Assembly (NCBI GenBank): GCA_016929205.1
Contig: JAFGJF010000044.1
Span: 1-10,811, forward strand
DNA length: 10,811 bases
DNA from: Anaerolineae bacterium
GTDB lineage: Bacteria > Chloroflexota > Anaerolineae > JAFGEY01
Reading direction: 5' to 3'
Shown here: positions 1 through 10,811 of the stretch, piece by piece
Layout of the letters: every line of letters starts with the position of its first letter
How positions within the stretch are numbered: position 1 is the first letter of the stretch
Translations under genes and position numbers: made by a program
Notes under the pieces: model-generated
The model's input: the letters and a program-made list of their open reading frames with translations, nothing else
Told to the model about the DNA's origin: nothing
Databases searched by the model: none

Positions 1-533
1 CGGGAATGCTGCATGAGCACATAGCTGTAGGGCAGCATCACCGCGTCGAAGGGAAATCGGTCCAGGCTGCGGCTGTGCATCGCCGCCGCCTTGAGCCCGT
101 GGGCGGTGACCCCCAAAAAGCGGACCAGCCCCTGCTCGCGGGCCTCGACAAAGGCCTCCAGCGTCCCGCCCGGGCCCATCGCTTTCTCCCAGCCCTGGGG
201 GTTGGCCAGACCGTGCATCTGCCACAGATCGACGTGGTCAACGCGCAGCCGGTCCAACGAACGGCGCAGATTGTCCCACGCGCCCCTGGCCGAGCGCTGG
301 CGGGTCTTGGTGGCGATGAAAAAGTGGTCGCGATGTTGGTCCATCCACGGGCCGATGCGCTGTTCGGCGTTGCCGTACATAGGCGCGGTGTCGATGTGGT
401 TGATCCCATGCTCGAGCAGCAGATCGAGGACCCGGTCGGCCTCGGCCTGCCTGGCGGCGCTCAACGCATAGGAGCCAAAAATAACGCGCGTGCTGTCGTG
501 GCCGGTGCGGCCAAAAGGGTGTTTGGCAATCAT
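1..533 (-). CDS. Aldo/keto reductase, N-terminal part (C-terminus beyond the window edge)
   Basis: An NAD(P)H-dependent oxidoreductase of the aldo/keto reductase superfamily, expected to be cytosolic and to reduce carbonyl groups. 177 codons are visible; the frame is open at position 1. I translated it by hand from the minus strand. Residues 43-61 read [19 protein letters not shown], the family's catalytic block, giving Asp48 and Tyr53. Lys76 follows in FFIATK, and His107 in VDLWQMH, so the full Asp-Tyr-Lys-His tetrad is present. A (beta/alpha)8 barrel of about 280-330 residues is usual, so roughly 40% is missing. The ATG at 533-531 is chosen because GGAGGG lies 7 nt upstream. It is downstream of the helicase gene on the same strand, but a 252-nt gap containing two hairpin repeats argues against tight coupling. 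The substrate cannot be told. The family call is firm. Confidence 0.93.
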
Positions 534-557
534 AGGGTGACCCTCCGTCGTCGCCGA

Positions 558-602
558 GAAACCAGGTTTTGCGCCAAGAACCTGCGCAAAAAACCTGGTT
601 TC
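558..602. repeat. Inverted-repeat hairpin, copy 1 of a pair
   Basis: GAAACCAGG (558-566) pairs with CCTGGTTTC (594-602). TTTT faces an A run, then GCGC (571-574) pairs with GCGC (584-587) around a 9-nt loop. It lies between the aldo/keto reductase start and the helicase stop. It resembles copy 2 at 628-671, and the bases that differ keep the pairing. It could be a dispersed intergenic repeat or an RNA structure in the reductase leader. No T tract makes it a clear terminator. Confidence 0.85.
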
Positions 603-627
603 GTAGAGGTGTGCAGGCCAATTATGA

Positions 628-671
628 GAAACCGGGTTTTGCGGCAAAATCCCCGCAAAAAACCCGGTTTC
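628..671. repeat. Inverted-repeat hairpin, copy 2 of a pair
   Basis: GAAACCGGG (628-636) pairs with CCCGGTTTC (663-671). TTTT faces AAAAAA, and GCGG (641-644) pairs with CCGC (653-656). The architecture is the same as at 558-602, and the spacing between copies is 70 nt start to start. Compared with copy 1, an A-T pair became G-C and a C-G pair became G-C, so selection or copying has kept the hairpin rather than the exact sequence. Confidence 0.85.
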
Positions 672-731
672 GTGCCTGAGATGATCTTACCACAGATCAC
701 CTGACACCTGCTGTCAAGTTTAGCACCAACT

Positions 732-759
732 CCTGACGCCTCACGCCTCACGTTTCACG
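732..759. repeat. Short 7-mer tandem array
   Basis: Four heptamers stand in a row: CCTGACG, CCTCACG, CCTCACG, TTTCACG. They lie in the 252-nt gap between the helicase stop and the reductase start. It is a small degenerate microsatellite with no visible function. The same gap holds two short dyads: TGATCT N6 AGATCA at 682-699 and TGACA N5 TGTCA at 702-716. Confidence 0.6.
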
Positions 760-785
760 TCGCGGTGCCATCTACCGCCCACGTC

Positions 786-2492
786 TCACTGCGCGCGCTG
801 CAGCACCACCGCCCGCCCGCGCAGTTTCCAGCCGCCCATTTTGTGCAAGACGTGCGCTTCGTGCTGCTTGAGCACGTCGACAAAGGTGTGCCGGGCATAG
901 ATGTCGATCGCGCCGATCGCCTCACCGGGAATGCGCGCCGTGCCGGCAATCGCGCCGACGATCTCGCCGGGATGTACCTGGTCTTGTTTGCCCATATCCA
1001 TCGTCAGGCGGACCATATTCGGCTCGTGGCTGCCCTTACGCTGCGAACGTTCTTTTCGCCCCGCCCGGCCCTTGCGCGGCCCACGTTCTCCGCGCCGGAT
1101 CGGTTCACCACCCCGCGTTCGTCCCCGGCGATCCGCCCTGTCGCCGGAAAACGCCGGCATCTCGGCGATATCCTCAACCGGGCGCTGCCGTTCCTGGGCG
1201 CGCGCCAGTTGCACCGCCGCCGCGGCGAGGTCGAGCGGATCGCAGCCCGTCGCGGCCAGTTTGGCCAGCATGGCGCGCTCGCGCTCAAACTGCCCCAGGG
1301 CAAATTGATCGGCCAACTGGTCGAGAAACTGCTCGTCGCGGTGATTCAGCACTTGCGCCGCCGTCGGCAGCCTGGCAAAGGCAATCGTGTCCCGCATATA
1401 ACGTTCGATCTTGTGCACGCGGAACCGCTCGCGCGGCGTGACCAGGCTCAACGCGACGCCCGCCCGGCCGGCCCGCCCCGTGCGCCCGATGCGATGGACG
1501 TAATACTCGGGGTCGACCGGCAGATCGTAATTGATCACGTGCGAGATGTCCTCGATATCCAGCCCTCGGGCGGCGACGTCGGTCGCCACCAGCAAAGACA
1601 CGCTCCCGGCTCGCAGACGACCTCCACGGCGAAAACGGCCCAGGATCGTCTCCCGCGTCTCCTGCTTTAGGTCGCCGTGCAGCGCCTCCGCCGGAAAACC
1701 GCGGGCCGACAGCGCTTCGGCCAGCTCGGCCGTGCCCGCTCGCGTGCGGCAAAAGATCAGGGCACTGTCCACATCCTGCATTTCCAACAAGCGCACGATC
1801 GCCGCCAGCTTGTCCGACTCGCGGACGACGTAATAGCGCTGCTCGGTATTACCGACCGTCAACTGCTGCGGATTGACGGTGATCGCCTCCGGGGTATGCA
1901 TATAACGGTCGGCCAGCCGGCGGATCGGGTCGGGCAAGGTGGCCGAAAAAAGCGCCGTCTGGCGCGTCTCGGGCGTCTGGCTCAGCAGCGATTCAATATC
2001 CTCAATAAAGCCCATACTCAGCATCTCGTCGGCCTCATCCAGCACCACAAACCGCACGGCGCTCAGATCGAGCAGGCCTTTCTCAACCAGGTCCAGCATC
2101 CGCCCCGGCGTGCCGACGACAATGTCAACGCCGCGTTTGAGGCGGCTGATCTGGCGCGCGTACGACTGCCCGCCGTAAACGGGCAGGACGCGCACGTCGC
2201 AGTGTCGTCCATAACGGTGGATCGCCCCGGCGACCTGGTTGGCCAGCTCGCGGGTGGGGGCAATGACGAGGCCCTGGATGCCATCGCCCTGCGGATCGAG
2301 GGTGTGCAGCATGGGCAAGGCAAAGGCCGCCGTCTTGCCGGTGCCCGTCTGGGCCTGGCCCATAATATCACGCCCTTCCAACAGCGGCGGCACCGCCTGC
2401 ACCTGGATCGGGGTCGGTTCCTGGTATCCCAATTCGCTCACCGTCTGTACCAATTCGGGGCACAGGCCGAGTGTTTCAAACGTCGTGGTCAT
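786..2492 (-). CDS. deaD: DEAD-box ATP-dependent RNA helicase with C-terminal DbpA/CsdA-type RNA-binding domain
   Basis: A 568-residue ATP-dependent RNA helicase, expected to remodel RNA structure in ribosome assembly and in mRNA decay or cold adaptation, as known for DeaD/CsdA. Visible motifs in order are: F5 and Q30 of the Q motif (GYQEPTPIQ); Walker A AQTGTGKT at 47-54; PTRELA at 79-84; TPGR at 128-131; DEAD at 152-155; SAT at 183-185; IFCRT at 246-250; ATDVAARGLDI at 303-313; and HRIGRTGR at 333-340. A basic Arg/Gly/Lys-rich linker precedes a domain at about 493-568 that matches the DbpA RNA-binding fold. A few extra residues (GGRLRAG, about 290-296) sit before motif V. The ATG at 2492 is preferred over upstream non-ATG starts because GGGAG lies 6 nt before it and the Q motif follows at once. 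It is preceded by a structured leader. The family is certain; deaD rather than another paralogue name is likely. Confidence 0.97.
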   Translation of the reverse strand: MTTTFETLGLCPELVQTVSELGYQEPTPIQVQAVPPLLEGRDIMGQAQTGTGKTAAFALPMLHTLDPQGDGIQGLVIAPTRELANQVAGAIHRYGRHCDVRVLPVYGGQSYARQISRLKRGVDIVVGTPGRMLDLVEKGLLDLSAVRFVVLDEADEMLSMGFIEDIESLLSQTPETRQTALFSATLPDPIRRLADRYMHTPEAITVNPQQLTVGNTEQRYYVVRESDKLAAIVRLLEMQDVDSALIFCRTRAGTAELAEALSARGFPAEALHGDLKQETRETILGRFRRGGRLRAGSVSLLVATDVAARGLDIEDISHVINYDLPVDPEYYVHRIGRTGRAGRAGVALSLVTPRERFRVHKIERYMRDTIAFARLPTAAQVLNHRDEQFLDQLADQFALGQFERERAMLAKLAATGCDPLDLAAAAVQLARAQERQRPVEDIAEMPAFSGDRADRRGRTRGGEPIRRGERGPRKGRAGRKERSQRKGSHEPNMVRLTMDMGKQDQVHPGEIVGAIAGTARIPGEAIGAIDIYARHTFVDVLKQHEAHVLHKMGGWKLRGRAVVLQRAQ

Positions 2493-2510
2493 TCTATTCT
2501 CCCAACATCG

Positions 2511-2556
2511 CGGATGTGCGGTCCATTCCCAAAGCGGGGCCCGGATCACACATCCG
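2511..2556 (-). promoter_or_regulatory. Long hairpin in the helicase 5' leader
   Basis: CGGATGTGCGGTCC (2511-2524) is complementary to GGATCACACATCCG (2543-2556) over 14 positions, with one mismatch and one wobble, around an 18-nt loop. In the mRNA it would sit between the terminator hairpin at 2569-2594 and the Shine-Dalgarno sequence at about 2498-2502. It could shape access to the ribosome binding site. That role is inference; the pairing is seen. Confidence 0.7.
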
Positions 2557-2568
2557 TAGCAGTGCAAC

Positions 2569-2594
2569 AAAAAAGCCCTGCCGGTCGGCAAGGC
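2569..2594 (-). terminator. Intrinsic terminator inside the helicase leader (attenuator candidate)
   Basis: On the minus strand GCCTTGCCG and CGGCAGGGC form an 8-9 bp stem with one wobble and a GACC tetraloop, followed directly by six T residues. It is downstream of the promoter at 2645-2672 and about 77 nt before the helicase ATG. No minus-strand gene lies between the promoter and this terminator, so it most simply acts as an attenuator or ends a short leader RNA. Confidence 0.75.
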
Positions 2595-2644
2595 TCAGTT
2601 AGCTCATCGTATGATCGTGCTCGTAGCGCGCATGCAACGAACAC

Positions 2645-2672
2645 ATTATACCACAGAAACGCGGACAGGCAA
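2645..2672 (-). promoter_or_regulatory. Sigma70-type promoter of the helicase gene
   Basis: The minus strand reads TTGCCT (2672-2667), a 16-nt spacer, then a perfect TATAAT (2650-2645). Transcription would start near 2638, giving a leader of about 145 nt. The -35 box lies in one of two ACATTTTGCC direct repeats (2668-2677 and 2685-2694 as the complement), spaced 17 nt apart, which could be a protein site. The call rests on sequence match only. Confidence 0.65.
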
Positions 2673-2822
2673 AATGTGGGACGTGGCAAAATGTTTTGGG
2701 CAGTGCGGCGTCACCCGGTATCGCTTCTTGATGCCTCGAGAACCGGGAAATTTGACGTACGCAACTTTTTTTCCTCCGCACTCGTAAATCTTGTAGATGG
2801 AGCGAAATGGAAGGAGCATTCT

Positions 2823-3452
2823 ATGTATATTGGACATTTCGCCGTTGGTCTGACAGCGAAACCTGCCGCACCCAAGGTATCGTTGGGGATTTCGTTGGTG
2901 GCGACTCAAGTGCTGGACATCCTGTACGCCATTTTGCTGCTCGTTGGCGTGAACCAGGCGGACGCTGCCGGTCCGTGGGATCACGGGCTGGTGATGTCTT
3001 TGGTTTGGTCCGCGGTGACTTGTGCCATCTCTTTCCTGTTCTACCGCGACATCCGATCGAGCATCGTCGTCGGCCTTTTGGTGCTGAGCCACTGGGTCTG
3101 CGATTTCATCTCCTGGGATCACGCTCTTCCGCTCGCGTTTGGCAACTCGCCACGAGTGGGACTCGGGCTGTACAACTCGATCCCGGTCATGCTGGCACTG
3201 GATTTCGGCCTCTTTGGCGGTGCATTTGCCCTCTACCTGTTCAGGACAAAAGCAAACGACCGTACGGGAAAATGGGCGCCCTGGCTCCTGGTCGCTTACC
3301 TCATCGCCCTGATTCCCACCAGCTTGCTGCCCGGAAAGCTTTTGATCATCATGGCCTTGGGTATGGCCTTGCTTGCGCCGTTCGGGTGGTGGATCGACCA
3401 GCACCGTTCTCTGGTCGCGGTGAACTGCACCGCAAACCGCACACTGCAGTGA
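2823..3452 (+). CDS. Membrane protein, metal-dependent hydrolase (YdjM/DUF457-like)
   Basis: A 209-residue integral membrane protein that resembles proteins annotated as membrane-bound metal-dependent hydrolases (YdjM/DUF457 type), whose substrate is unknown. Polar residues that could bind metal stand in or beside membrane segments: His5 (GHFAVG), Asp32 (QVLDILY), Asp53-His54 (PWDH), and His90, Asp94, Asp99, His100 (SHWVCDFISWDH). VGLGLYNS at about 112-119 is also typical. Hydrophobic stretches near 22-43, 56-75, 80-90, 117-138 and 150-188 suggest about five or six passes. The ATG is chosen because AAGGAG lies 6 nt upstream; the longer open frame upstream is antisense to the helicase. It is transcribed divergently from the helicase. 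The last nine or ten residues (NCTANRTLQ) are encoded by a dispersed 30-bp repeat, so the native C-terminus was probably replaced. The family call is moderate. Confidence 0.75.
   Translation: MYIGHFAVGLTAKPAAPKVSLGISLVATQVLDILYAILLLVGVNQADAAGPWDHGLVMSLVWSAVTCAISFLFYRDIRSSIVVGLLVLSHWVCDFISWDHALPLAFGNSPRVGLGLYNSIPVMLALDFGLFGGAFALYLFRTKANDRTGKWAPWLLVAYLIALIPTSLLPGKLLIIMALGMALLAPFGWWIDQHRSLVAVNCTANRTLQ
3422..3451. repeat. Dispersed 30-bp repeat, copy 1 (in a gene 3' end)
   Basis: This 30-nt block is identical to 10586-10615. It starts GAACTGCACC and ends with the 10-nt palindrome CACTGCAGTG. It covers the final codons of the membrane protein gene and reaches the stop codon. Partial similarity continues a few bases on both sides (GCGG before, TTGC and CTT after). 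Confidence 0.9.
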
Positions 3453-3535
3453 TTGCGCTTGTGGTTGCCCGGCCCTGTCACATTCCACCGCTCGCCGCCA
3501 TCAAGCCATAGCGCAACCGTTCAGAAAGGAGCAAG

Positions 3536-4924
3536 ATGTCGGAGTGGATTGATGCCTCAGCCGTCACCCTCGCCAAAGCCATTCGCGCCCGCGAGGTGTC
3601 CTCACGGGACGTCGTGGAAGCGTGCCTGGCGCGGATCGAACAGGTCAATGCCCGGCTGAATGCCGTCGTTCAAATCGATGCCGAATCGGCGCTTTTGCAA
3701 GCCCGGCAAGCCGACGACGAGCTGGCCCGAGGGCAGGTCCGTGGTCCCCTGCACGGAGTGCCGATGACGATCAAGGACAGCCTCGACACCGCCGGGATGG
3801 TCACCACGGCGGGCAGCAAGGGTCGGGCCGGCTTTGTTCCCAAGAATGACGCGACGGTCGTCTCGCGCCTGCGCGCGGCAGGGGCAATCCTGATCGGCAA
3901 GACCAATACGCCCGAGCTGACGCTCGCCTACGAGACGGACAACCTGGTCTACGGCCGGACCAACAATCCCTACGATCTGTCACGCACGAGCGGGGGCAGC
4001 AGCGGCGGGGCTGCGGCGATCGTCGCCGCCGGGGGCAGCCCTTTCGACATTGGCAGCGATACGGGCGGCAGCATTCGCGTTCCCGCCCACTTTAACGGGA
4101 TCGCCGGCATCCGGCCGACGTCGGGCCGGGTTCCAAGAACCGGGCACATGCCGCCGCCCGGTGGGGCGATGGAGGCGTTGACGCAGCTCGGTCCATTGGC
4201 CAGAACGGTTCAAGATCTGATCGTGATCCTGCCGATCATCGCCGGCATCGACTGGCGCGATCCGGCGATCGTTCCGATCGCTTTGAGCGATCCGGGTGAG
4301 GTCGACCTGGCAGGGTTGAGCGTTGCCTTTCACACCGACAACGGCATCGCCACGCCGGTACCCGAGATCCGCGCGACCGTCGAGGCTGCGGCTCGAGCGC
4401 TCGACGGGGCCGGACTGGCGGTCGTCCGGGCCCGCCCGCCCGGGATCGAACAGGCCGCTCCGCTCTGGTCCGAATGGATAACCGCCGATGGCGGCGCCGG
4501 CATCCGGGCCCTTTTGCAGATGTGCGGCACCGACGAACCACATCCCTGGACGCAGCGTCTGATCGACCACGCCCGGGCCGGGCAGATCACGGTGGCAGAG
4601 TTTGGCGGGCTGCTGGCCCGGCTGGACATGTTTCGCAGCCAGATGCTCTCCTTTATCCAGCAGCACGACCTCATCCTCTGTCCGGTCAGCGCCCACCCGG
4701 CGCTGCCACATGGCGCTGCCGTCGAAAACGTGTTATACTTTTCATATACCTTTACTTACAATCTGACAGGTTGGCCGGCTGTGGTCGTCCCGGTGGGTGC
4801 CACGGCCGAAGGGCTGCCCATTGGCGTCCAGGTCGTCGCCCGTCCCTGGCGCGAAGACGTGGCGCTCAAGGTCGCTCAATTCCTGGAAAACACGTTCGGC
4901 GGCTGGCGACGCCCGCCTCTCTAG
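3536..4924 (+). CDS. Amidase-signature family amidohydrolase
   Basis: A 462-residue cytosolic hydrolase that cleaves amide (C-N) bonds with a Ser-cisSer-Lys triad. The triad is fully visible: Lys80 in GVPMTIKD, Ser155 in SGGSSGG and Ser179 in [11 protein letters not shown]. The 24-residue gap between the serines matches the family. GKTNTPE at 121-127 and the C-terminal [13 protein letters not shown] block are also typical, and the length is normal. ATG 3536 is preceded by AAAGGAG 4 nt upstream. No gatB or gatC neighbours are present and the protein lacks other hints of GatA, so a stand-alone amidase acting on a small amide or xenobiotic fits better; the substrate is unknown. The 83-nt gap to the previous gene has no clear terminator, so read-through is possible. 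Confidence 0.93.
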
Positions 4925-5196
4925 TACTACCGGCAGGGGTGAAGCCCCCACGAGAATCAATTCTCGTAATGATTTTACGAGTCAAATTGCGGAAGAAAAA
5001 CACATTGAGCTGCAAGAATTGGTCAATGACTGGCTCAGGAACAACATTCTAAAAACGTGCGGGAATGACAAGCTGCTAGCCCGCGTTCATATCATGAAAA
5101 TTGCACATTGGGCCGTTTATATCAAATGTCAACAGAACCTGGCCTGGATTTGGATACACTGCGGCGCCAGCATCAGGATAGCGCAGCATCTTTTGC
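4925..5196 (+). other. Intergenic stretch with hairpins, no confident gene
   Basis: This 272-nt gap is richer in A and T than its flanks. It starts with GGGG TGAAG CCCC at about 4936-4949, then two overlapping hairpins at 4950-4981. Positions 4987-5046, in the frame of codon ATT 4987, read IAEEKHIELQELVNDWLRNN, which looks like a helical protein fragment, but no start codon with a ribosome site leads it. It may be a decayed gene remnant. I see no convincing promoter for the next gene. Confidence 0.45.
4950..4981 (+). repeat. Two mutually exclusive hairpins after the amidase gene
   Basis: ACGAGAAT (4950-4957) pairs perfectly with ATTCTCGT (4960-4967) around CA. CTCGTAA (4963-4969) also pairs perfectly with TTACGAG (4975-4981). 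The two stems share 4963-4967, so only one can form at a time. A possible terminator or attenuator lies 25 nt after the amidase stop, but no strong T tract follows. Confidence 0.6.
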
Positions 5197-6090
5197 ATGA
5201 TGGACAGGATCGGTTCCCTTGTGAACAAACACCCCTATTTTGACTTGTGGCTGCACGATGACCGCGAATTGGCATCGTTTACGGGCCAAACGATCGAGGA
5301 TCGGATCACACTTCACGAATGGCCGCTGTCGTGCGTGCAGCAGCTCCAACTGGAGGATGGTCGCAAGCTGATCTACAAGAGCCAAGCCGGCCCCACCGTG
5401 GAACCGGCATTCTACAAACGCGCTGCGAGCCCGCTCCTGCTGTCCACCGAGACGCTGTGGGAATCGGACGGGCACGCGTGCATGCTCATCGAATTCATCG
5501 AGGCCCCACACCTGGAGGATCTCGATTTGCCGGAGGATGAGGCCGTGCGCACCGGCCAAGAAATAGTCGCCCGGATCGCCGAGATCAAAGGTGATCCGCC
5601 ATGCTACATCGACATCGGTAGCGCGGACAAATGGGGGCAGCTCGTCGACGCGACCGTGAGGGATCTGCGAGGACTCGTCGCTTTGGGCCGCTTTCAGCAC
5701 GTCACCGGCGACACGGTGCGCGAGCTCGACCGGCTTGCACGCGATCCAATCGTCCTGGAAGCCCTCGAGCGGGATCCGGGCCTCGTCCACGGCGACCTGG
5801 GCGGCGACAACGTGTTTCGCTGTCCAGATGGGTACAAAATCATCGACTGGCAGCGTCCCATTCGCGGCCCCCGGGAACTCGACTTGATGGTTTTCGCCAG
5901 CCGGATGGGTTCTATCCGCCGGTTCGAATTTGATCCCCTCAAATACGTGCATCCGGGTATCGCCGCCATGTGGGCGTTTCTGAGCGCGCAATGGTTCACG
6001 GAATGCAAAACGCGCTGGATTCCCAAAGCCACCGACTATGACAGCGTCATCGCAAACACACCTGACGAAATGAAGCGTTTTCTTACCTGA
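5197..6090 (+). CDS. Aminoglycoside phosphotransferase-like kinase (APH/choline kinase fold)
   Basis: A 297-residue protein-kinase-like small-molecule phosphotransferase. The catalytic loop LVHGDLGGDNVF (196-207) gives His198, the catalytic Asp200 and Asn205. KIIDWQ (214-219) holds the metal-binding Asp217 in place of DFG, and the following GPRELDL is usual for APH-type enzymes. Lys61 in LIYKSQ is the likely ATP-binding lysine on strand 3. The known family phosphorylates aminoglycosides, homoserine, choline or other hydroxylated compounds; the substrate here cannot be told. Start choice is uncertain: ATG 5197 (or ATG 5200) has no good Shine-Dalgarno sequence, and GTG 5221 is an in-frame alternative. 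The neighbours are unrelated, and an inverted-repeat element begins 40 nt after the stop. Confidence 0.85.
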   Translation: MMDRIGSLVNKHPYFDLWLHDDRELASFTGQTIEDRITLHEWPLSCVQQLQLEDGRKLIYKSQAGPTVEPAFYKRAASPLLLSTETLWESDGHACMLIEFIEAPHLEDLDLPEDEAVRTGQEIVARIAEIKGDPPCYIDIGSADKWGQLVDATVRDLRGLVALGRFQHVTGDTVRELDRLARDPIVLEALERDPGLVHGDLGGDNVFRCPDGYKIIDWQRPIRGPRELDLMVFASRMGSIRRFEFDPLKYVHPGIAAMWAFLSAQWFTECKTRWIPKATDYDSVIANTPDEMKRFLT

Positions 6091-6130
6091 TCTGGACATC
6101 AGCCTTGTGGCGGCGGCACAGTCCCAAACT

Positions 6131-6260
6131 TGAGATTCGGTCATAAATGTAAAGTGTGGTTGGCGGCGTTTATGGAAAAACGCCCTACATCTTGGATGAT
6201 CATCGCTTGTAGGGCACATTTCCATACGTGCCGATTCTTTGGAGTTATGACCGAATCTCA
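6131..6260. mobile_element. 130-bp near-palindromic foldback (MITE-like or structured RNA)
   Basis: TGAGATTCGGTCATAA (6131-6146) pairs perfectly with TTATGACCGAATCTCA (6245-6260). Nested inside and nearly concentric are AAAG/CTTT (6151-6154 with 6237-6240), CGGCG/TGCCG (6164-6168 with 6229-6233, one wobble), TATGGAAA/TTTCCATA (6171-6178 with 6219-6226) and GCCCTACA/TGTAGGGC (6182-6189 with 6208-6215). The palindrome GATGATCATC (6195-6204) is at the tip. An alternative stem, GGCGTTT/AAACGCC, lies at 6165-6184. Whether it is a DNA element or an RNA is open. No transposase is encoded. Confidence 0.75.
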
Positions 6261-6320
6261 GCCCAAACTGATTGACTTGCTCGAGCAAAAAGCGTATAAT
6301 AACTGCAACTGCGGACTTGG
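6247..6320 (+). repeat. Promoter-bearing repeat, copy 1
   Basis: The 74 nt from ATG 6247 to CTTGG at 6320 align without gaps to 6959-7032 (51 of 74 identical by my count). The 45 nt at 6262-6306 align to 8131-8175 (34 of 45). Its first 14 nt are part of the right arm of the 130-bp foldback. The repeat contains the promoter at 6272-6300. It can also be read as a short frame beginning MTESQPKLIDL. Confidence 0.8.
6272..6300 (+). promoter_or_regulatory. Strong sigma70-type promoter for the HEAT-repeat gene
   Basis: TTGACT (6272-6277), a 17-nt spacer and a perfect TATAAT (6295-6300). The start point would be near 6307, leaving a leader of about 75 nt. That leader carries a small nested hairpin at 6318-6344 (TGGTT/AACCA outside, CTTGA/TCAAG inside). 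The next start codon downstream is the HEAT gene at 6382. Confidence 0.8.
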
Positions 6321-6381
6321 TTTGTCTTGATAGTCAAGTAACCAGATAGAATCACCATCTAGATCACAAAGGTGACTTGCT

Positions 6382-6987
6382 ATGAGTCAACAATCAGGAC
6401 CAAACAACCATCAAGTCGATCAACTCGTCGCCGACCTGCGCGATCGGGACGATGACGTACGCGCCGACGCGGCCGAAGCACTCAGACGCATGGCCGATCT
6501 GCGTGCCGTCGAACCGCTCATCGCCGCCCTGCTCGATCAGCACTGGGTCGTGCGCTGGCACGCTGCCGGAGCATTGGGCAGCCTGTGCGATCCGCGCGCC
6601 GTCGAACCGCTCATCGCCGCCCTGCACGATCCGATCCATTGCGTGCGTGAGGCTGCGGCCGAGGCGCTGGGCCAACTGGCCGATCCACGCGCCCTGTACC
6701 CGCTGATCGCGGCCCTGCGAGACCCGGACAAGCGAATGCGCACCTGTGCTGCCGCCGTATTGGGCGACCTGACCCATCCCTGCGCCGTGGAACCGCTGAT
6801 CGCCGCCCTGCATGACCCGGACCCATCTGTGCGCTACCGGGCCGCCGCGGCATTGGGCAGCCTGGCCGACCGGCGGGCCATCGAACCACTCACCGCTGCC
6901 ATGCAAGACCAGAACATCGGGGTGCGCTGGTCTGCGGCTCGGGCGCTGGACAGCCTGCATGAGCGAATCTCAAGCCAAAGCGATTGA
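6382..6987 (+). CDS. HEAT-repeat protein (PBS-lyase-like repeats)
   Basis: A 201-residue protein made almost wholly of six 31-residue HEAT repeats at about 12-42, 43-73, 74-104, 105-135, 136-166 and 167-197. The consensus is VEPLIAALHDPxxxVRxxAAxALGxLxDPRA. Such alpha-solenoids act as protein-binding scaffolds; no catalytic site is visible and no partner can be named. There is no signal peptide or membrane segment, so it is cytosolic. ATG 6382 has AAAGGTGA 6-7 nt upstream, a good ribosome site. Repeats 2, 3 and 5 are also very alike in DNA (93-bp period). The stop codon TGA 6985-6987 lies inside the -35-like box of the downstream repeat copy, so the last residues (ERISSQSD) are repeat-derived. 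Confidence 0.93.
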   Translation: MSQQSGPNNHQVDQLVADLRDRDDDVRADAAEALRRMADLRAVEPLIAALLDQHWVVRWHAAGALGSLCDPRAVEPLIAALHDPIHCVREAAAEALGQLADPRALYPLIAALRDPDKRMRTCAAAVLGDLTHPCAVEPLIAALHDPDPSVRYRAAAALGSLADRRAIEPLTAAMQDQNIGVRWSAARALDSLHERISSQSD

Positions 6988-7032
6988 CCTGCCCACACAA
7001 AGCGCATATCGTGAAGGCAGGTACAAACTTGG
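6959..7032 (+). repeat. Promoter-bearing repeat, copy 2 (degenerate), overlapping a gene end
   Basis: It aligns without gaps to 6247-6320 and, in its 6974-7018 part, to 8131-8175 (35 of 45 identical). TTGACC (6984-6989) and a 17-nt spacer are kept, but the -10 is TATCGT (7007-7012), so activity is doubtful. It overlaps the last 29 nt of the HEAT gene. In another frame it begins MSESQAKAIDL and, past one stop codon, goes on DNRDKAETIG, so it may be a relic of a coding sequence. ACCTGCC (6987-6993) and GGCAGGT (7016-7022) could form a stem. Confidence 0.75.
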
Positions 7033-7116
7033 GCGGGTCCACGTCAACTGAGACAACCGCGACAAAGCTGAGACAATTGGGCGATAGGGATGCGACACAT
7101 CCTTGGTAGACTGGGA

Positions 7117-7138
7117 TTGGCTGGTCGCTGCCAGCCAA
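7117..7138 (+). promoter_or_regulatory. Perfect hairpin in the CPBP gene leader
   Basis: TTGGCTGG (7117-7124) pairs with CCAGCCAA (7131-7138) around TCGCTG. It lies 19 nt before the AAGGAGG ribosome site of the CPBP gene. Positions 7040-7079 just upstream carry CTGAGACAA twice. A leader RNA structure is plausible; no known riboswitch is recognised. Confidence 0.5.
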
Positions 7139-7170
7139 CAACCATTCCAAGAACCCAAGGAGGTTACCCG

Positions 7171-8049
7171 ATGTCGCAAGAAACCAACGTTCGCACGGAT
7201 CGGCTCGAGCAGTTCGCCTTTGGTTGGCCGGTCATGTTCTCTATCCTGGTCATCCTCGCCGCAGGGCTGCTGACCGAAATCCCGCTTGACACTGTCCTGG
7301 AACCGCTGGTGGGCAACCCAGTCGCCGAATTCTGGAAGGTGCTGATCGAACATACCTTGACCGGCCTGATCCTGGTGCGGCTGCTGCACAAACTGGGCCT
7401 GTTCAAACGGGCCGGATTCACCCCTCTCGGGCAGTGGAAAGCGGTCTGGCTGGTCTGGCCGCTGCTGGTATTCGCACTGCTCAACCTCGACTCGCTGATC
7501 GACGGCAGCCTGGTCATCGACTGGTCCCGTCCCGGCCTGATCGCGCTGTATATGTGCATGAATCTGGCGATCGGTTTTTGCGAAGAGGTGATGGGGCGTG
7601 GGGTCGTCCTGCTGGCCATGCTTGGAAAATGGGGCCGCACCCGGCGCGGCATCTACCGGGCCGTGATTGTGTCCGGACTGCTCTTTGGCATCGGCCACAT
7701 CTTTAACTTGCTCACCGGCCGCCTGACGCCACTGGCCAGCCTGACCCAGATCGGTTTTAGCGTGTTCTTTGGTGTCGCCTTTGCCGCCTGCTTTTTGAGA
7801 AACAATGCGATCTGGCCAGTGGTGATCGTGCACGCGCTGATCGACATAGCCGGCGGCCTGCGGCACATCGCCGTGGGCGGAGCCGCTCAAGCCGCCGTAG
7901 CCAACAATACCGCCATCCAGGCCGTCACCGCGCTGCTCATCACCCTGCCGCTGTTCCTCTACGGCCTCTTTATCCTGCGCAAGGTGTCGCCGCCCAAACG
8001 GCAGGACGCGACCGGCAGCGCGTCCCGAAACCCGCTCGCGTCCACATAA
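7171..8049 (+). CDS. CPBP-family intramembrane metalloprotease
   Basis: A 292-residue multi-pass membrane protein of the CPBP (CAAX protease and bacteriocin-processing, Abi) family. Such enzymes cleave proteins within the membrane; known bacterial members act in bacteriocin self-immunity and peptide maturation. The three motifs are visible: EEVMGR (Glu138, Glu139, Arg143), FGIGH (Phe172, His176) and HALID (His221, Asp225, where Asn or Asp is usual). About seven hydrophobic stretches run from 19 to 275, and the tail after KVSPPKR is short and polar. ATG 7171 is chosen because a perfect AAGGAGG lies 7 nt upstream; an earlier in-frame ATG at 7090 has none. A degenerate promoter repeat precedes it by about 160 nt. 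No bacteriocin gene is next to it, so the target is unknown. Confidence 0.93.
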   Translation: MSQETNVRTDRLEQFAFGWPVMFSILVILAAGLLTEIPLDTVLEPLVGNPVAEFWKVLIEHTLTGLILVRLLHKLGLFKRAGFTPLGQWKAVWLVWPLLVFALLNLDSLIDGSLVIDWSRPGLIALYMCMNLAIGFCEEVMGRGVVLLAMLGKWGRTRRGIYRAVIVSGLLFGIGHIFNLLTGRLTPLASLTQIGFSVFFGVAFAACFLRNNAIWPVVIVHALIDIAGGLRHIAVGGAAQAAVANNTAIQAVTALLITLPLFLYGLFILRKVSPPKRQDATGSASRNPLAST

Positions 8050-8063
8050 CTATCCGCAGAGGG

Positions 8064-8113
8064 CACAGGTGATCGCCGATTCGTCGAAATCCGCGCAATC
8101 GGCGTCACCTGTG
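8064..8113. repeat. Long hairpin between the CPBP gene and the next promoter
   Basis: CACAGGTGATCGCCGATT (8064-8081) pairs with AATCGGCGTCACCTGTG (8097-8113): 17 pairs with one bulged T and a 15-nt loop. It begins 14 nt after the CPBP stop. No T tract follows, so it is not a classic terminator; it may stabilise the 3' end or be a DNA site. Confidence 0.75.
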
Positions 8114-8130
8114 GATGAGCCACCCTCTTG

Positions 8131-8175
8131 GCCAAAACGATTGACTTGTCCGCGCAAAGCGCGTATAATGAGAGC
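8131..8175 (+). repeat. Promoter-bearing repeat, copy 3
   Basis: 45 nt align to 6974-7018 (35 identical) and 6262-6306 (34 identical). The -35, the 17-nt spacer and the -10 are all preserved. Read in the equivalent frame it gives AKTIDLSAQSAYNES, close to copies 1 and 2. Similarity ends soon after 8175. Confidence 0.8.
8141..8169 (+). promoter_or_regulatory. Strong sigma70-type promoter before the toxin-antitoxin pair
   Basis: TTGACT (8141-8146), a 17-nt spacer and a perfect TATAAT (8164-8169). A transcript starting near 8176 would have a leader of about 97 nt before the BrnT ATG at 8273. This makes it the most likely promoter for both toxin and antitoxin. Confidence 0.75.
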
Positions 8176-8181
8176 AAATAA

Positions 8182-8210
8182 TGGAATCCGCTCGACCCAT
8201 CGTCACGCGC
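8182..8210. repeat. Direct repeat bracketing the toxin-antitoxin pair, left copy
   Basis: 29 nt match 8843-8871 at 25 positions; the four differences are all transitions. The last 15 nt (CCCATCGTCACGCGC end) are identical. The left copy follows the promoter repeat, 62 nt before BrnT. The two copies are 661 nt apart. Confidence 0.8.
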
Positions 8211-8246
8211 CACCTTGTTCAAGCCCAGTCACGGTCCAAGAGAGCC

Positions 8247-8274
8247 TTGACAGCACAAGAAAGTGTGCCATAAT
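8247..8274 (+). promoter_or_regulatory. Second promoter with an operator-like dyad at the toxin start
   Basis: TTGACA (8247-8252), a 16-nt spacer and CATAAT (8269-8274). The whole spacer is the dyad GCACA N6 TGTGC (8253-8268), a fitting site for a ribbon-helix-helix antitoxin repressor. The -10 overlaps the toxin ATG at 8273-8275, so transcripts from here would begin inside the toxin gene. Confidence 0.5.
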
Positions 8275-8557
8275 GAAAGCAACCGTAGAATGGGACCCGG
8301 CCAAAGCTAGAACCAATCGTCGTAAACACGGCGTGGCATTTGAGGAAGCCGCCACCATCTTGGCTGATCCGCTTTCATCTACCATCCTCGATCCTTTGCA
8401 CTCGGAAACAACGGAAGACCGGTTCGTCACTATTGGACAATCTATTCGAGGACGGTTATTGGTAGTTGTACATGCCGACCGGAGTGATACAATTCGCATC
8501 ATCAGCGCTCGTGTTGCAAATGCACACGAAAGGAAAACCTATGAAGAGACAACCTGA
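8273..8557 (+). CDS. brnT: BrnT-family ribonuclease toxin
   Basis: A 94-residue protein of the BrnT type II toxin family, RelE-like ribonucleases known to block translation by cutting RNA until bound by their antitoxin. The N-terminal VEWDPAKARTNRRKHGVAFEEAATILADP block (5-33) and the C-terminal RLLVVVHADRSDTIRIISAR stretch (61-80), followed by ERKTYEE, are family hallmarks and near consensus; the length is normal. ATG 8273 lacks a clear Shine-Dalgarno sequence, so toxin translation may be weak. The antitoxin gene overlaps its end by 17 nt, the usual operon order for this family. It is bracketed by direct repeats, suggesting the pair arrived as a unit. Function is inferred from family only. 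Confidence 0.93.
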   Translation: MKATVEWDPAKARTNRRKHGVAFEEAATILADPLSSTILDPLHSETTEDRFVTIGQSIRGRLLVVVHADRSDTIRIISARVANAHERKTYEETT

Positions 8558-8768
8558 GATCGAACGCGATTCTGACATGCTGGATGATTATGATTTCAGT
8601 CAAGGCGTGCGCGGCAAATACGTGCCGCGCTTCGCACAAGGTAGCAATGTAGTGGTATTGTCGCCGGATGTAGCTGAAATATTCCCCGATTCAGAATCAG
8701 TCAACAATGCCTTACGCATGTTGGTCGAAATTGCGGGCAAAAGCACCAGCAAGGTATCTGCTCACTAG
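8541..8768 (+). CDS. Antitoxin partner of BrnT, ribbon-helix-helix-like
   Basis: A 75-residue small protein. The N-terminal part (about 1-35, MLDDYDFSQGVRGKY) should wrap the toxin. Residues 36-41 (NVVVLS) form a likely DNA-binding strand, followed by helices from about 42-50 and 51-66 (SESVNNALRMLVEIA), as in ribbon-helix-helix repressors. Proteins of this pattern are common BrnT partners, but it is not the classic BrnA (DUF4415) sequence, so no symbol is given. ATG 8541 follows AAAGGA with 6-nt spacing, far better than the toxin's start, which would favour antitoxin excess. It probably represses the operon, perhaps at the dyad 8253-8268. Confidence 0.88.
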   Translation: MKRQPEIERDSDMLDDYDFSQGVRGKYVPRFAQGSNVVVLSPDVAEIFPDSESVNNALRMLVEIAGKSTSKVSAH

Positions 8769-8809
8769 AACTAAACGAGCCTTTTACAGCATCCAGAACT
8801 CTCTAGACG

Positions 8810-8849
8810 GATTCCACCTCGGACTTGGCAATGTAGGGAAGGTGGAATC
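8810..8849. repeat. Inverted repeat before the serine hydrolase gene
   Basis: GATTCCACCT (8810-8819) pairs perfectly with AGGTGGAATC (8840-8849) around a 20-nt loop. The right arm overlaps the right copy of the direct repeat. It lies 42 nt after the antitoxin stop. It could be the end structure of an inserted unit or a weak terminator; no T tract follows. Confidence 0.65.
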
Positions 8850-8871
8850 TATTCAACCCATCGTCACGCGC
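8843..8871. repeat. Direct repeat bracketing the toxin-antitoxin pair, right copy
   Basis: Partner of 8182-8210 (25 of 29 identical). It lies 17 nt before the next start codon. Weak similarity to the left copy appears to continue upstream (AATG, AG, then TGGAATC), which hints that a longer segment including the promoter was duplicated and has decayed here. Confidence 0.8.
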
Positions 8872-8888
8872 GCAAAAAAAGAGGGTAC

Positions 8889-9884
8889 ATGCAAGACCTG
8901 ATCCGCAGACTAGAACAGGCCGCCCTGAACACAGCCTTCTCGGGCGTGATCTCGATCTTTCAAGACGCGTCCACCCTGTTCAACAAGGCGTTTGGCTACC
9001 GGGACACCAAAAACACGCTGCCCAATACGACCACGACCCTGTTTGGCATCGCCTCGGGCACCAAGCTCTTTACCGCGTTGGGCATCGGCGTGCTCGTCGA
9101 CCAGGGCGCGATCTCGTTGGGGACGGCCGTCAAAGACATTGACCCGGACTATACGAATTTCATCGACGAACAGGCGACCATTCAACACTTGCTGACCCAT
9201 ACCTCGGGGATCTATGACTATTACGACGAGGAAATCGAGCAGGATTTCGAGCAGTTCAAGGTGGCTATCCCGTGGTGTGAATTGGAAACGCCGTCAGACT
9301 ATCTCCCCCTATTCAAGGACCAGACAAAAAAATTCTCCCCCGGAGAGCGATTCTCTTATTCCAACGGCGGTTATGTCTTTTTGGGCATACTGATCGAAAA
9401 GCTGACCGGCACGCTTTACCGGGACTTTATCCGTGAGCACGTCTTACAGCCAGCCAACATGCACCGTTCTGGATTTTATGCCTTTCATGACCTGCCACAA
9501 AACACCGCGAACGGCTATCTAGAGGATCGCAGGACAACCAACATCTATCACCTGCCGCTGAGAGGCGGTGGAGACGGGGGAATGTACACCACGACAAGCG
9601 GCCTGCGTGCCTTTTGGGACAGCTTGTTTGCCCACCAAATCCTGTCTCCAGAACTCACCGCAACGTATCTGGACACACACTGGGCCCTCAACGACGTCGA
9701 TGGTTATGGCTGCGGGATCTATAAACGGCTCGACGACAGTATGTTTTCGATCGTCGGCGGGGATGCCGGGGTTGGGTTCGATTCCCGGTACCTTGTCCGG
9801 GAGAAACTGACGGTCAACATTCTTTCCAACATCACCAATGGCGAAGACGATATCCGGGAGATTGTCCTGGATTTCCTGGTTTGA
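8889..9884 (+). CDS. Beta-lactamase-family serine hydrolase (class C/AmpC-like fold)
   Basis: A 331-residue penicillin-binding-protein-like serine hydrolase. The nucleophile motif is SGTK (Ser56, Lys59), the second motif is YSN (157-159), and LLTHTSGI (101-108) and GGGDGGMYTT (226-235) are usual for this family. The third motif, normally K/H-T-G or H-x-G, reads VGGDAG at about 289-294, so its basic residue is missing. No signal peptide is visible, which suggests a cytosolic esterase, peptidase or amidase rather than a resistance beta-lactamase. ATG 8889 has GAGGG only 3 nt away, a poor spacing, but no better start exists. The next gene follows after 31 nt and may be co-transcribed. The substrate is unknown. 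Confidence 0.92.
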   Translation: MQDLIRRLEQAALNTAFSGVISIFQDASTLFNKAFGYRDTKNTLPNTTTTLFGIASGTKLFTALGIGVLVDQGAISLGTAVKDIDPDYTNFIDEQATIQHLLTHTSGIYDYYDEEIEQDFEQFKVAIPWCELETPSDYLPLFKDQTKKFSPGERFSYSNGGYVFLGILIEKLTGTLYRDFIREHVLQPANMHRSGFYAFHDLPQNTANGYLEDRRTTNIYHLPLRGGGDGGMYTTTSGLRAFWDSLFAHQILSPELTATYLDTHWALNDVDGYGCGIYKRLDDSMFSIVGGDAGVGFDSRYLVREKLTVNILSNITNGEDDIREIVLDFLV

Positions 9885-9915
9885 CGATACACACACTATG
9901 TAGGAGCGCATCACC

Positions 9916-10539
9916 GTGACCACAGCAGCACCCCATCCTCGCGTCCTCCTGATCGGCGGCACGTCCCATACCGGCAAATCGACGCTCGCCCAGTCGCTGG
10001 CCTCGACGCTCGGCTGGCGCTACATCACGACAGACCTGCTCGCCCGCCACCCCGGACGACCGTGGAAGACCGCACCCGAAACGGTGCCCCAGCACGTGGC
10101 CGAGCATTACCTGACCTTGTCCGTCAACGAGTTGATCGCCGACGTGCTGCGGCATTACCGGGACAACGTCTGGCCAATCGCCAAGGCGTTTGTTATGTTA
10201 CACGTTAACGATCCGGCTCAAGGCGGCCTGGTCATGGAAGGATCGGCCTTGTGGCCCGAATCGGTGGTCTCGTTGGACCTGGACCGGATCGCCGCCGTCT
10301 GGCTCACCGCCGGCGACGACCTTTTTGAGGCCAGAATTTACCACGAAAGCCGCTATCAAGACAAAACAGGCCGCGAGCAAACCCTGATCGACAAGTTTTT
10401 GGCGCGCACCCTGGCCTACAACACGCGGATGATGGAGGCCGTCAACCGGCTCGGGCTGTCCAGCATCGACCTGGACACGACGTCCTCGCAGGAAGACCTG
10501 GCTGGCCGGTGCCTGTCCTTGTTGCAGAGACAAAAATAA
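9916..10539 (+). CDS. P-loop kinase-like ATPase (2-phosphoglycerate-kinase-like)
   Basis: A 207-residue nucleotide-binding protein. The Walker A motif is GTSHTGKST (Gly15, Lys21, Ser22). TTD (Asp40) follows the second strand, where small-molecule kinases bind substrate. LVMEGSALWPE (105-115) resembles the block found in 2-phosphoglycerate-kinase-like and related P-loop kinases, and ARIYHESRY (139-147) could be the lid region. It most likely phosphorylates a small metabolite; which one is unknown. The GTG start at 9916 is supported by AGGAG 9 nt upstream and by the Walker A motif close behind. The 31-nt gap to the hydrolase gene suggests an operon, but the two functions are not clearly linked. 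Confidence 0.85.
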   Translation: MTTAAPHPRVLLIGGTSHTGKSTLAQSLASTLGWRYITTDLLARHPGRPWKTAPETVPQHVAEHYLTLSVNELIADVLRHYRDNVWPIAKAFVMLHVNDPAQGGLVMEGSALWPESVVSLDLDRIAAVWLTAGDDLFEARIYHESRYQDKTGREQTLIDKFLARTLAYNTRMMEAVNRLGLSSIDLDTTSSQEDLAGRCLSLLQRQK

Positions 10540-10558
10540 AGTATCTTGGCAAAAAGCA

Positions 10559-10622
10559 GGGGCAATCCCGGCAGTGGATGGCGGGGAACTGCACCGCAAA
10601 CCGCACACTGCAGTGGTTGCCC
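10559..10622. repeat. Foldback element containing copy 2 of the 30-bp repeat
   Basis: GGGCAA (10560-10565) pairs with TTGCCC (10617-10622), CC (10567-10568) with GG (10615-10616), and GCAGTG (10571-10576) with CACTGC (10606-10611). The loop is about 29 nt. The repeat core 10586-10615 is identical to 3422-3451. The element starts 20 nt after the kinase stop codon and has no T tract. Confidence 0.7.
10586..10615. repeat. Dispersed 30-bp repeat, copy 2
   Basis: Identical over 30 nt to 3422-3451, in the same orientation and again at the 3' side of a plus-strand gene. It ends in the palindrome CACTGCAGTG. Confidence 0.9.
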
Positions 10623-10684
10623 TTCCGGGTGGGCACAAGACCCATCCCTAGCCCAAAACACGGAGAGGATACGAAAGGGAACAA

Positions 10685-10811
10685 GATGACCACACCGACA
10701 GACCAGGAGAATGCCGACTGTACGAGCCGTGTAGGTCGGGTTCCCAGGTTCATACCAACCCACACCTCCACCCAACCACAGCCTTATCGCCAACCCCCAA
10801 CTCGACCTACA
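10685..10811 (+). pseudogene. Possible start of a small gene interrupted by an inverted-repeat element
   Basis: ATG 10685 follows AAAGGGA with about 6-nt spacing and opens a frame to the window edge. Residues 1-15 (MTTPTDQENADCTSR) are encoded before or at the border of the element at 10730-10811. The rest is a proline/threonine-rich translation of repeat DNA and is unlikely to be native. The product is not recognised. It may instead be a chance frame. Confidence 0.35.
10730..10811. mobile_element. 82-bp terminal-inverted-repeat element (MITE-like)
   Basis: TGTAGGTCGGGTT (10730-10742) and AACTCGACCTACA (10799-10811) are inverted repeats with one mismatch. The interior is C-rich on the plus strand and encodes nothing recognisable. 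The element ends exactly at the window edge, so target duplication or further repeat DNA cannot be checked. Confidence 0.65.

Follow-up and report, generated by a model that had tools for sequence, protein, structure and literature searches.

What accounts for three similar, promoter-like sequences standing before three unrelated genes on one short bacterial contig? The stretch in question is contig JAFGJF010000044.1 of the Anaerolineae bacterium assembly GCA_016929205.1 (Chloroflexota), positions 1 to 10,811, referred to here in its full length as the window. The initial annotation had noticed a repeat in three copies, named R1, R2 and R3 below, and had proposed that it is a dispersed promoter cassette. 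Our analysis favors, with a probability of about 0.6, the reading that one promoter segment was duplicated locally and reused before unrelated accessory genes. The three copies are as follows.

6247..6320, plus strand: R1, repeat copy with a candidate promoter, preceding the HEAT gene (alignment and box scan)
6959..7032, plus strand: R2, copy before the CPBP gene, read as decayed (alignment and box scan)
8117..8180, plus strand: R3, copy before brnT (gapless homology from 8130, and from 8117 with one 1-nt gap)

Three copies of one segment

The claim of three copies that align without gaps was confirmed. R1 and R2 are identical at 51 of 74 positions (6247-6320 and 6959-7032; 23 differences), and R3 aligns without gaps with each of them over 50 nt. 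Counted over these 50 common positions, R1 and R3 agree at 38/50, R2 and R3 at 37/50, and R1 and R2 at 31/50 (62-76% identity). The similarity of R3 reaches back to an ATGAGC at 8117 when a single 1-nt gap is allowed, and all three copies then start with ATGASC. The ungapped local high-scoring segment pairs of the three copy pairs score 163, 142 and 142, compared with largest scores of 72, 76 and 99 in 200 shuffles of the 300-nt neighbourhoods. These scores also exceed the best direct pair found in shuffles of the whole window (at most 106, n=30) and in block-shuffled windows (at most 117, n=30). A 27-nt pattern built from R1-R3 matches all three and was found in none of 200 shuffles, a test made post hoc. 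Overall, the alignments support common descent of R1, R2 and R3 from one segment of about 70 nt.

A promoter-like core

A scan for sigma-70-like sites found the -35 and -10 boxes, the 17-nt spacing and the perfect TATAAT in two copies just as they had been described. R1 carries TTGACT at 6272-6277 and TATAAT at 6295-6300, and R3 carries TTGACT at 8141-8146 and TATAAT at 8164-8169, each matching the consensus at 11 of 12 positions. R2 carries TTGACC at 6984-6989 and TATCGT at 7007-7012, also separated by 17 nt (9/12). This puts R1 and R3 in the top three promoter-like sites of the window by score; the third site with 11/12, TTGACA-16-CATAAT at 8247-8274, overlaps the brnT start codon. Between R1 and R3, all 12 hexamer positions are kept, whereas 12 of the other 38 positions differ and 26 are identical (Fisher p 0.047, post hoc). 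The R2 hexamers differ at 3 of 12 positions, matching the expectation without constraint. We read this pattern as a promoter core kept in R1 and R3 and decayed in R2. R2 no longer has a good -10 box and probably acts as a weak promoter or as none. Of the dispersed-promoter proposal, the common descent and the sigma-70-like core in two copies stand, and R2 is not likely to work well as a promoter.

The shared block extends from about -60 to +14 relative to the expected transcription start, which for R1 would lie near 6307, as judged from the position of the -10 box. The footprint of RNA polymerase covers about the same span. A conserved hairpin in the repeat was considered and rejected: R2 folds more stably than shuffles (z -2.65), and R1 (1.25) and R3 (-1.37) do not. 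The R1 leader gave no sign of a structured RNA (fold z -0.79), and searches for RNA families (at gathering thresholds) and for tRNAs returned none.

Alternative explanations

Could the copies be independent promoters that are alike by convergence, being read by one sigma factor and perhaps by one shared regulator? As a control, 51 distinct promoter-like sites (at least 9/12, 17-nt spacer, coding or not) were taken from E. coli K-12, in two 50-kb stretches. The control comes from a species other than the host, and most of its sites are weak, only 3 of 51 reaching 10/12. Among the 1275 pairs, the matches outside the hexamers averaged 9.6 of 38 and did not exceed 20, whereas the copies share 26 (R1/R3), 22 (R1/R2) and 28 (R2/R3) of these 38 positions. 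Their similarity, moreover, continues beyond the -35 box for about 25 nt in the upstream direction. This similarity of spacer and flank above the control points to common descent, and it bears out the remark that the spacers are more alike than those of ordinary convergent promoters. Convergence does find some support in a promoter-like site of the helicase gene, on the minus strand of the window, which has TGTCCGCG and GTATAATG in common with R3 at equal spacing, a resemblance that could be due to chance or host preference, and in one unrelated viral contig that gives the only match to the promoter-core pattern among the viral contigs. Given the control, convergence was ruled out as the main reading and is considered very unlikely. 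A different proposal, already raised in the initial annotation, holds that the copies are relics of genes, namely the 5' ends (M-S/T-ESQ-x-K-x-IDL) of a duplicated and broken gene, or else the 3' ends of a HEAT-like gene. The peptide reading is indeed present, and the ATG-frame peptides of R1 and R2 are similar. R2 does overlap the HEAT gene: its first 29 nt are the last 29 nt of that gene, and the HEAT stop codon (6985-6987) lies inside the R2 -35 box. Translated by eye in the HEAT frame, R2 gives ERISSQSD-stop and R1 DRISAQTD-stop. The observation that R2/R3 differences fall mostly in codon positions 1 and 3 held for that pair (6, 1 and 3 differences at positions 1, 2 and 3), but the counts for R1/R2 (8, 9, 6) and R1/R3 (5, 4, 2) lack a coding signature, and R3 carries a frameshifting indel. 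For the 66-aa open reading frame (ORF) that holds the peptide, no Pfam match was found, nor any homologue among candidate proteins of about 36-115 aa, a selection by length that would miss a long protein with such a start. In viral contigs, a pattern made from the first 21 nt occurs at three loci. Two of these show no difference across the 2000 nt that were compared, and there MTESQSK begins a 67-aa frame; at the third (L007, 590-2656, minus strand), MTESQSK stands towards the C-terminal end of a phage ORF of 688 aa, which looks portal-like by eye and whose tail reads MTESQSKENLYSLLEQK. Outside the pattern, too, this tail resembles the R1 peptide (p 0.003, chosen after inspection) but not the R2 peptide (p 0.43), and BLASTP of the R1 peptide with it gave no alignment. 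The resemblance is a weak lead for the relic idea. With no consistent codon signature, no Pfam match for the 66-aa ORF and no homologue among proteins of about 36-115 aa, descent from a gene start has little support and appears unlikely.

The remaining alternative involves a palindrome that adjoins R1.

6131..6260, no strand assigned: palindrome of 130 nt whose arms are nested; the outer ones, 24 nt long, are complementary at 21/24 (DNA fold z -5.5)

Miniature inverted-repeat transposable elements (MITEs) have terminal inverted repeats or a long palindrome, generate a target-site duplication and occur in several whole copies, some with outward promoters. The copies could accordingly be the ends of a non-autonomous, MITE-like element with an outward promoter, the palindrome being the element at R1, and R2 and R3 being truncated ends. 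The strong fold of the palindrome, seen at R1 only, fits such an origin, as does the presence of ATGASCGAATCTCA (S = C or G) at three sites of the window, sought with up to 2 mismatches and all exact, which are the two palindrome arms and the R2 start. The right arm ends in the first 14 nt of R1, ATGACCGAATCTCA, which is found inverted at 6131-6144. Resembling a target-site duplication, CCCAAACT flanks the palindrome on both sides, at 6123-6130, abutting its left end, and at 6262-6269, one base past its right end; among 42,564 comparisons within the window, 10 show an 8-nt match at such spacing, this pair being one of them. The R1/R2 similarity, however, continues for 60 nt past the supposed element end, for which an 8-nt target-site duplication cannot account, and insertion alone is insufficient because the right-hand CCCAAACT falls inside the stretch common to R1, R2 and R3. 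R3 has no good match to the palindrome arm, a second copy of the palindrome was not seen within the window, no transposase was found among the 10 proteins scanned, and the left arm, when extended as a fourth, inverted copy, is only weakly similar (p 0.006 against R2, 0.37 against R1 and 0.12 against R3). A mobile-element origin is considered doubtful. The palindrome and its CCCAAACT flanks (6123-6269) sit just behind a gene for an APH-family kinase.

Local duplication of a promoter segment, the reading preferred here, has several observations weighing against it. The palindrome arm common to R1 and R2 is left unexplained by plain promoter duplication. The 31% divergence of R1 and R2 means that the copies are old, and a search of the 10.8-kb window with the core pattern, allowing up to 3 mismatches, turned up R1-R3 and no further copy. 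The total of promoter-like sites in the window is barely distinguishable from chance (6 found, against 3.3 in shuffles, standard deviation 2.0), R2 fits the consensus poorly, and the test for hexamer conservation between R1 and R3 is borderline as well as post hoc. In addition, the 22/38 of R1/R2 is also reached by an unrelated place of the window compared with R2, although the true pair gains further similarity from the 25 nt that precede the -35 box.

Search for further copies elsewhere

An exact 27-nt pattern fitting all three copies was scanned against 84,980 species, each represented by a single genome, and gave 3 matches: one in a Lachnospiraceae genome, one in a Cerina genome and one in an uncultured genome. 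All lie within open frames (434, 290 and 328 codons) and have no TATAAT at 17 nt; about 1 match is expected by chance according to our own estimate, and the three are apparently due to chance. An exact scan is blind to diverged copies, so that this result is no argument against copies in the host. Plasmid and phage records gave no match to 6100-8280 (blastn sensitivity, E up to 0.01). In the viral contigs, the 27-nt core pattern gave 2 matches, which are identical over the 1276 nt compared and lie inside a 309-codon frame. Integron cassettes have attC core sites (GTTRRRY / RYYYAAC) at their borders. An integron cassette array was rejected as a candidate, since no attC core was found in 6122-6345, 6950-7060 or 8100-8200, and one RYYYAAC stands at 8851, next to a different repeat. 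Listings from PMC searches on mobile or reused promoters, MITEs of Chloroflexi, promoters of BrnTA and transcription starts in Anaerolineae contained nothing on the R1-R3 repeat.

Neighbouring genes and proposed function

Gene family matches bear out that each copy precedes a different, unrelated gene. The genes concerned are listed below.

6382..6987, plus strand: HEAT-repeat protein gene (ORF and family match), putatively expressed from R1
7171..8049, plus strand: CPBP/Rce1-like membrane protease gene, downstream of R2 (ORF and family match)
8273..8557, plus strand: BrnT-family toxin gene (PF04365, 96 bits), putatively expressed from R3
8541..8768, plus strand: small ORF behind brnT, at the place of an antitoxin gene, with no family match

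The small ORF at 8541-8768 has no match in Pfam, NCBIfam or PADLOC and possibly represents an unrecognised antitoxin family. Among the best 120 of 3644 HEAT homologues listed, identities are at most 58%, and hence none of those listed is close enough to check the overlap of the gene with R2. Relatives of the helicase encoded in the window are at most 71% identical among the best 120 of 7999 listed; of the 11 with an organism name, 10 belong to Chloroflexi or Anaerolineae and 1 to Proteobacteria. Relatives of the CPBP and BrnT proteins were sought in viral contigs, and none was confirmed there.

Under the preferred reading, a segment of about 70 nt with a complete sigma-70-type promoter would have been copied within the region by local duplication or recombination. 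R1 would most likely drive the HEAT gene through ordinary recognition by RNA polymerase, and R3 would most likely drive the brnT-family gene together with the ORF behind it, whereas R2, its good -10 box lost, would contribute weakly or not at all. Promoter activity, the gene served by each copy and the route of duplication are all inferred from the DNA sequence. R1-R3 are accordingly best described as an old three-member family of putative promoter-bearing segments, probably comprising two working promoters and a decayed one, and shared expression of the HEAT gene and the brnT pair is plausible. A bolder proposal is that the segment is a shared promoter-operator, with the toxin-antitoxin-like pair behind R3 regulating R3 itself and, via R1 and perhaps R2, the HEAT and CPBP genes. 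This is highly improbable; if true, promoter duplication would have assembled a small local regulon under the control of an antitoxin.

Should the copies be active, local duplication can hand accessory genes of this lineage a ready-made promoter, and the HEAT gene and the toxin-antitoxin-like pair would share one expression signal. The locus would then be one more case bearing on how new genes get promoters, a matter that three old copies on one contig are too few to decide.

Comparison with known systems

Mobile promoters occur as near-identical copies across a genome and vary in presence or absence between related genomes. Putative mobile promoters and promoter reuse in prokaryotes were reportedly described by Matus-Garcia in 2012, Nijveen in 2012 and van Passel in 2014. 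Passages citing this work in two reports (PMC8049555, PMC9208149) concern short promoter-bearing sequences that recur before non-homologous genes of one genome. Similarly, a related sequence precedes several non-homologous genes here (HEAT, CPBP and BrnT), its promoter being recognized by sequence only; unlike in those cases, there are three diverged copies in one 10.8-kb window, 62-76% identical over 50 nt. The R1-R3 family thus resembles so-called mobile promoters, a known kind of arrangement and mostly ordinary biology.

The halovirus HF2 provides a second comparison. It has short intergenic repeats, each with a promoter, nine of which were cloned and all found active, and the repeats and their positions are conserved among related viruses (PMC8707807). 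R1-R3 are likewise short repeats between genes and promoter-like, but HF2 is an archaeal virus with cloned, active repeats, whereas R1-R3 are known as sequences alone. As for MITEs, the likeness consists in the long palindrome beside R1 with its possible 8-nt direct flank repeat, whereas a second complete element was not seen in the window and the homology of the copies runs on across the supposed end.

Other repeats on the contig

A leader repeat at 3412-3540 and 10575-10690 has a core identical at 45 of 51 positions and scores 201, above the null maxima of 106 and 117. One copy extends to the amidase start codon and the other to a possible start (10686) for an ORF that the end of the contig truncates. 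Leader duplication thus probably happened elsewhere on the contig too. Since intergenic repeats occur in several places of the contig, duplication of leaders is favored over a special promoter cassette. The left copy of this leader repeat begins inside the end of the preceding gene, which encodes a 209-aa protein.

A 29-nt near-repeat at 8182-8210 and 8843-8871 (25/29) lies on both sides of the brnT pair. Its score of 109 is within the block-shuffle null (maximum 117), and a repeat bracketing the toxin pair is therefore not counted as established. Its exact 15-nt core occurs twice in the window and in none of 200 shuffles, as determined post hoc. Two similar 45-nt palindromes were also observed at 558-602 and 628-671, 70 nt apart, with the form GAAACC.GGTTTTGCG...AAAACC.GGTTTC.

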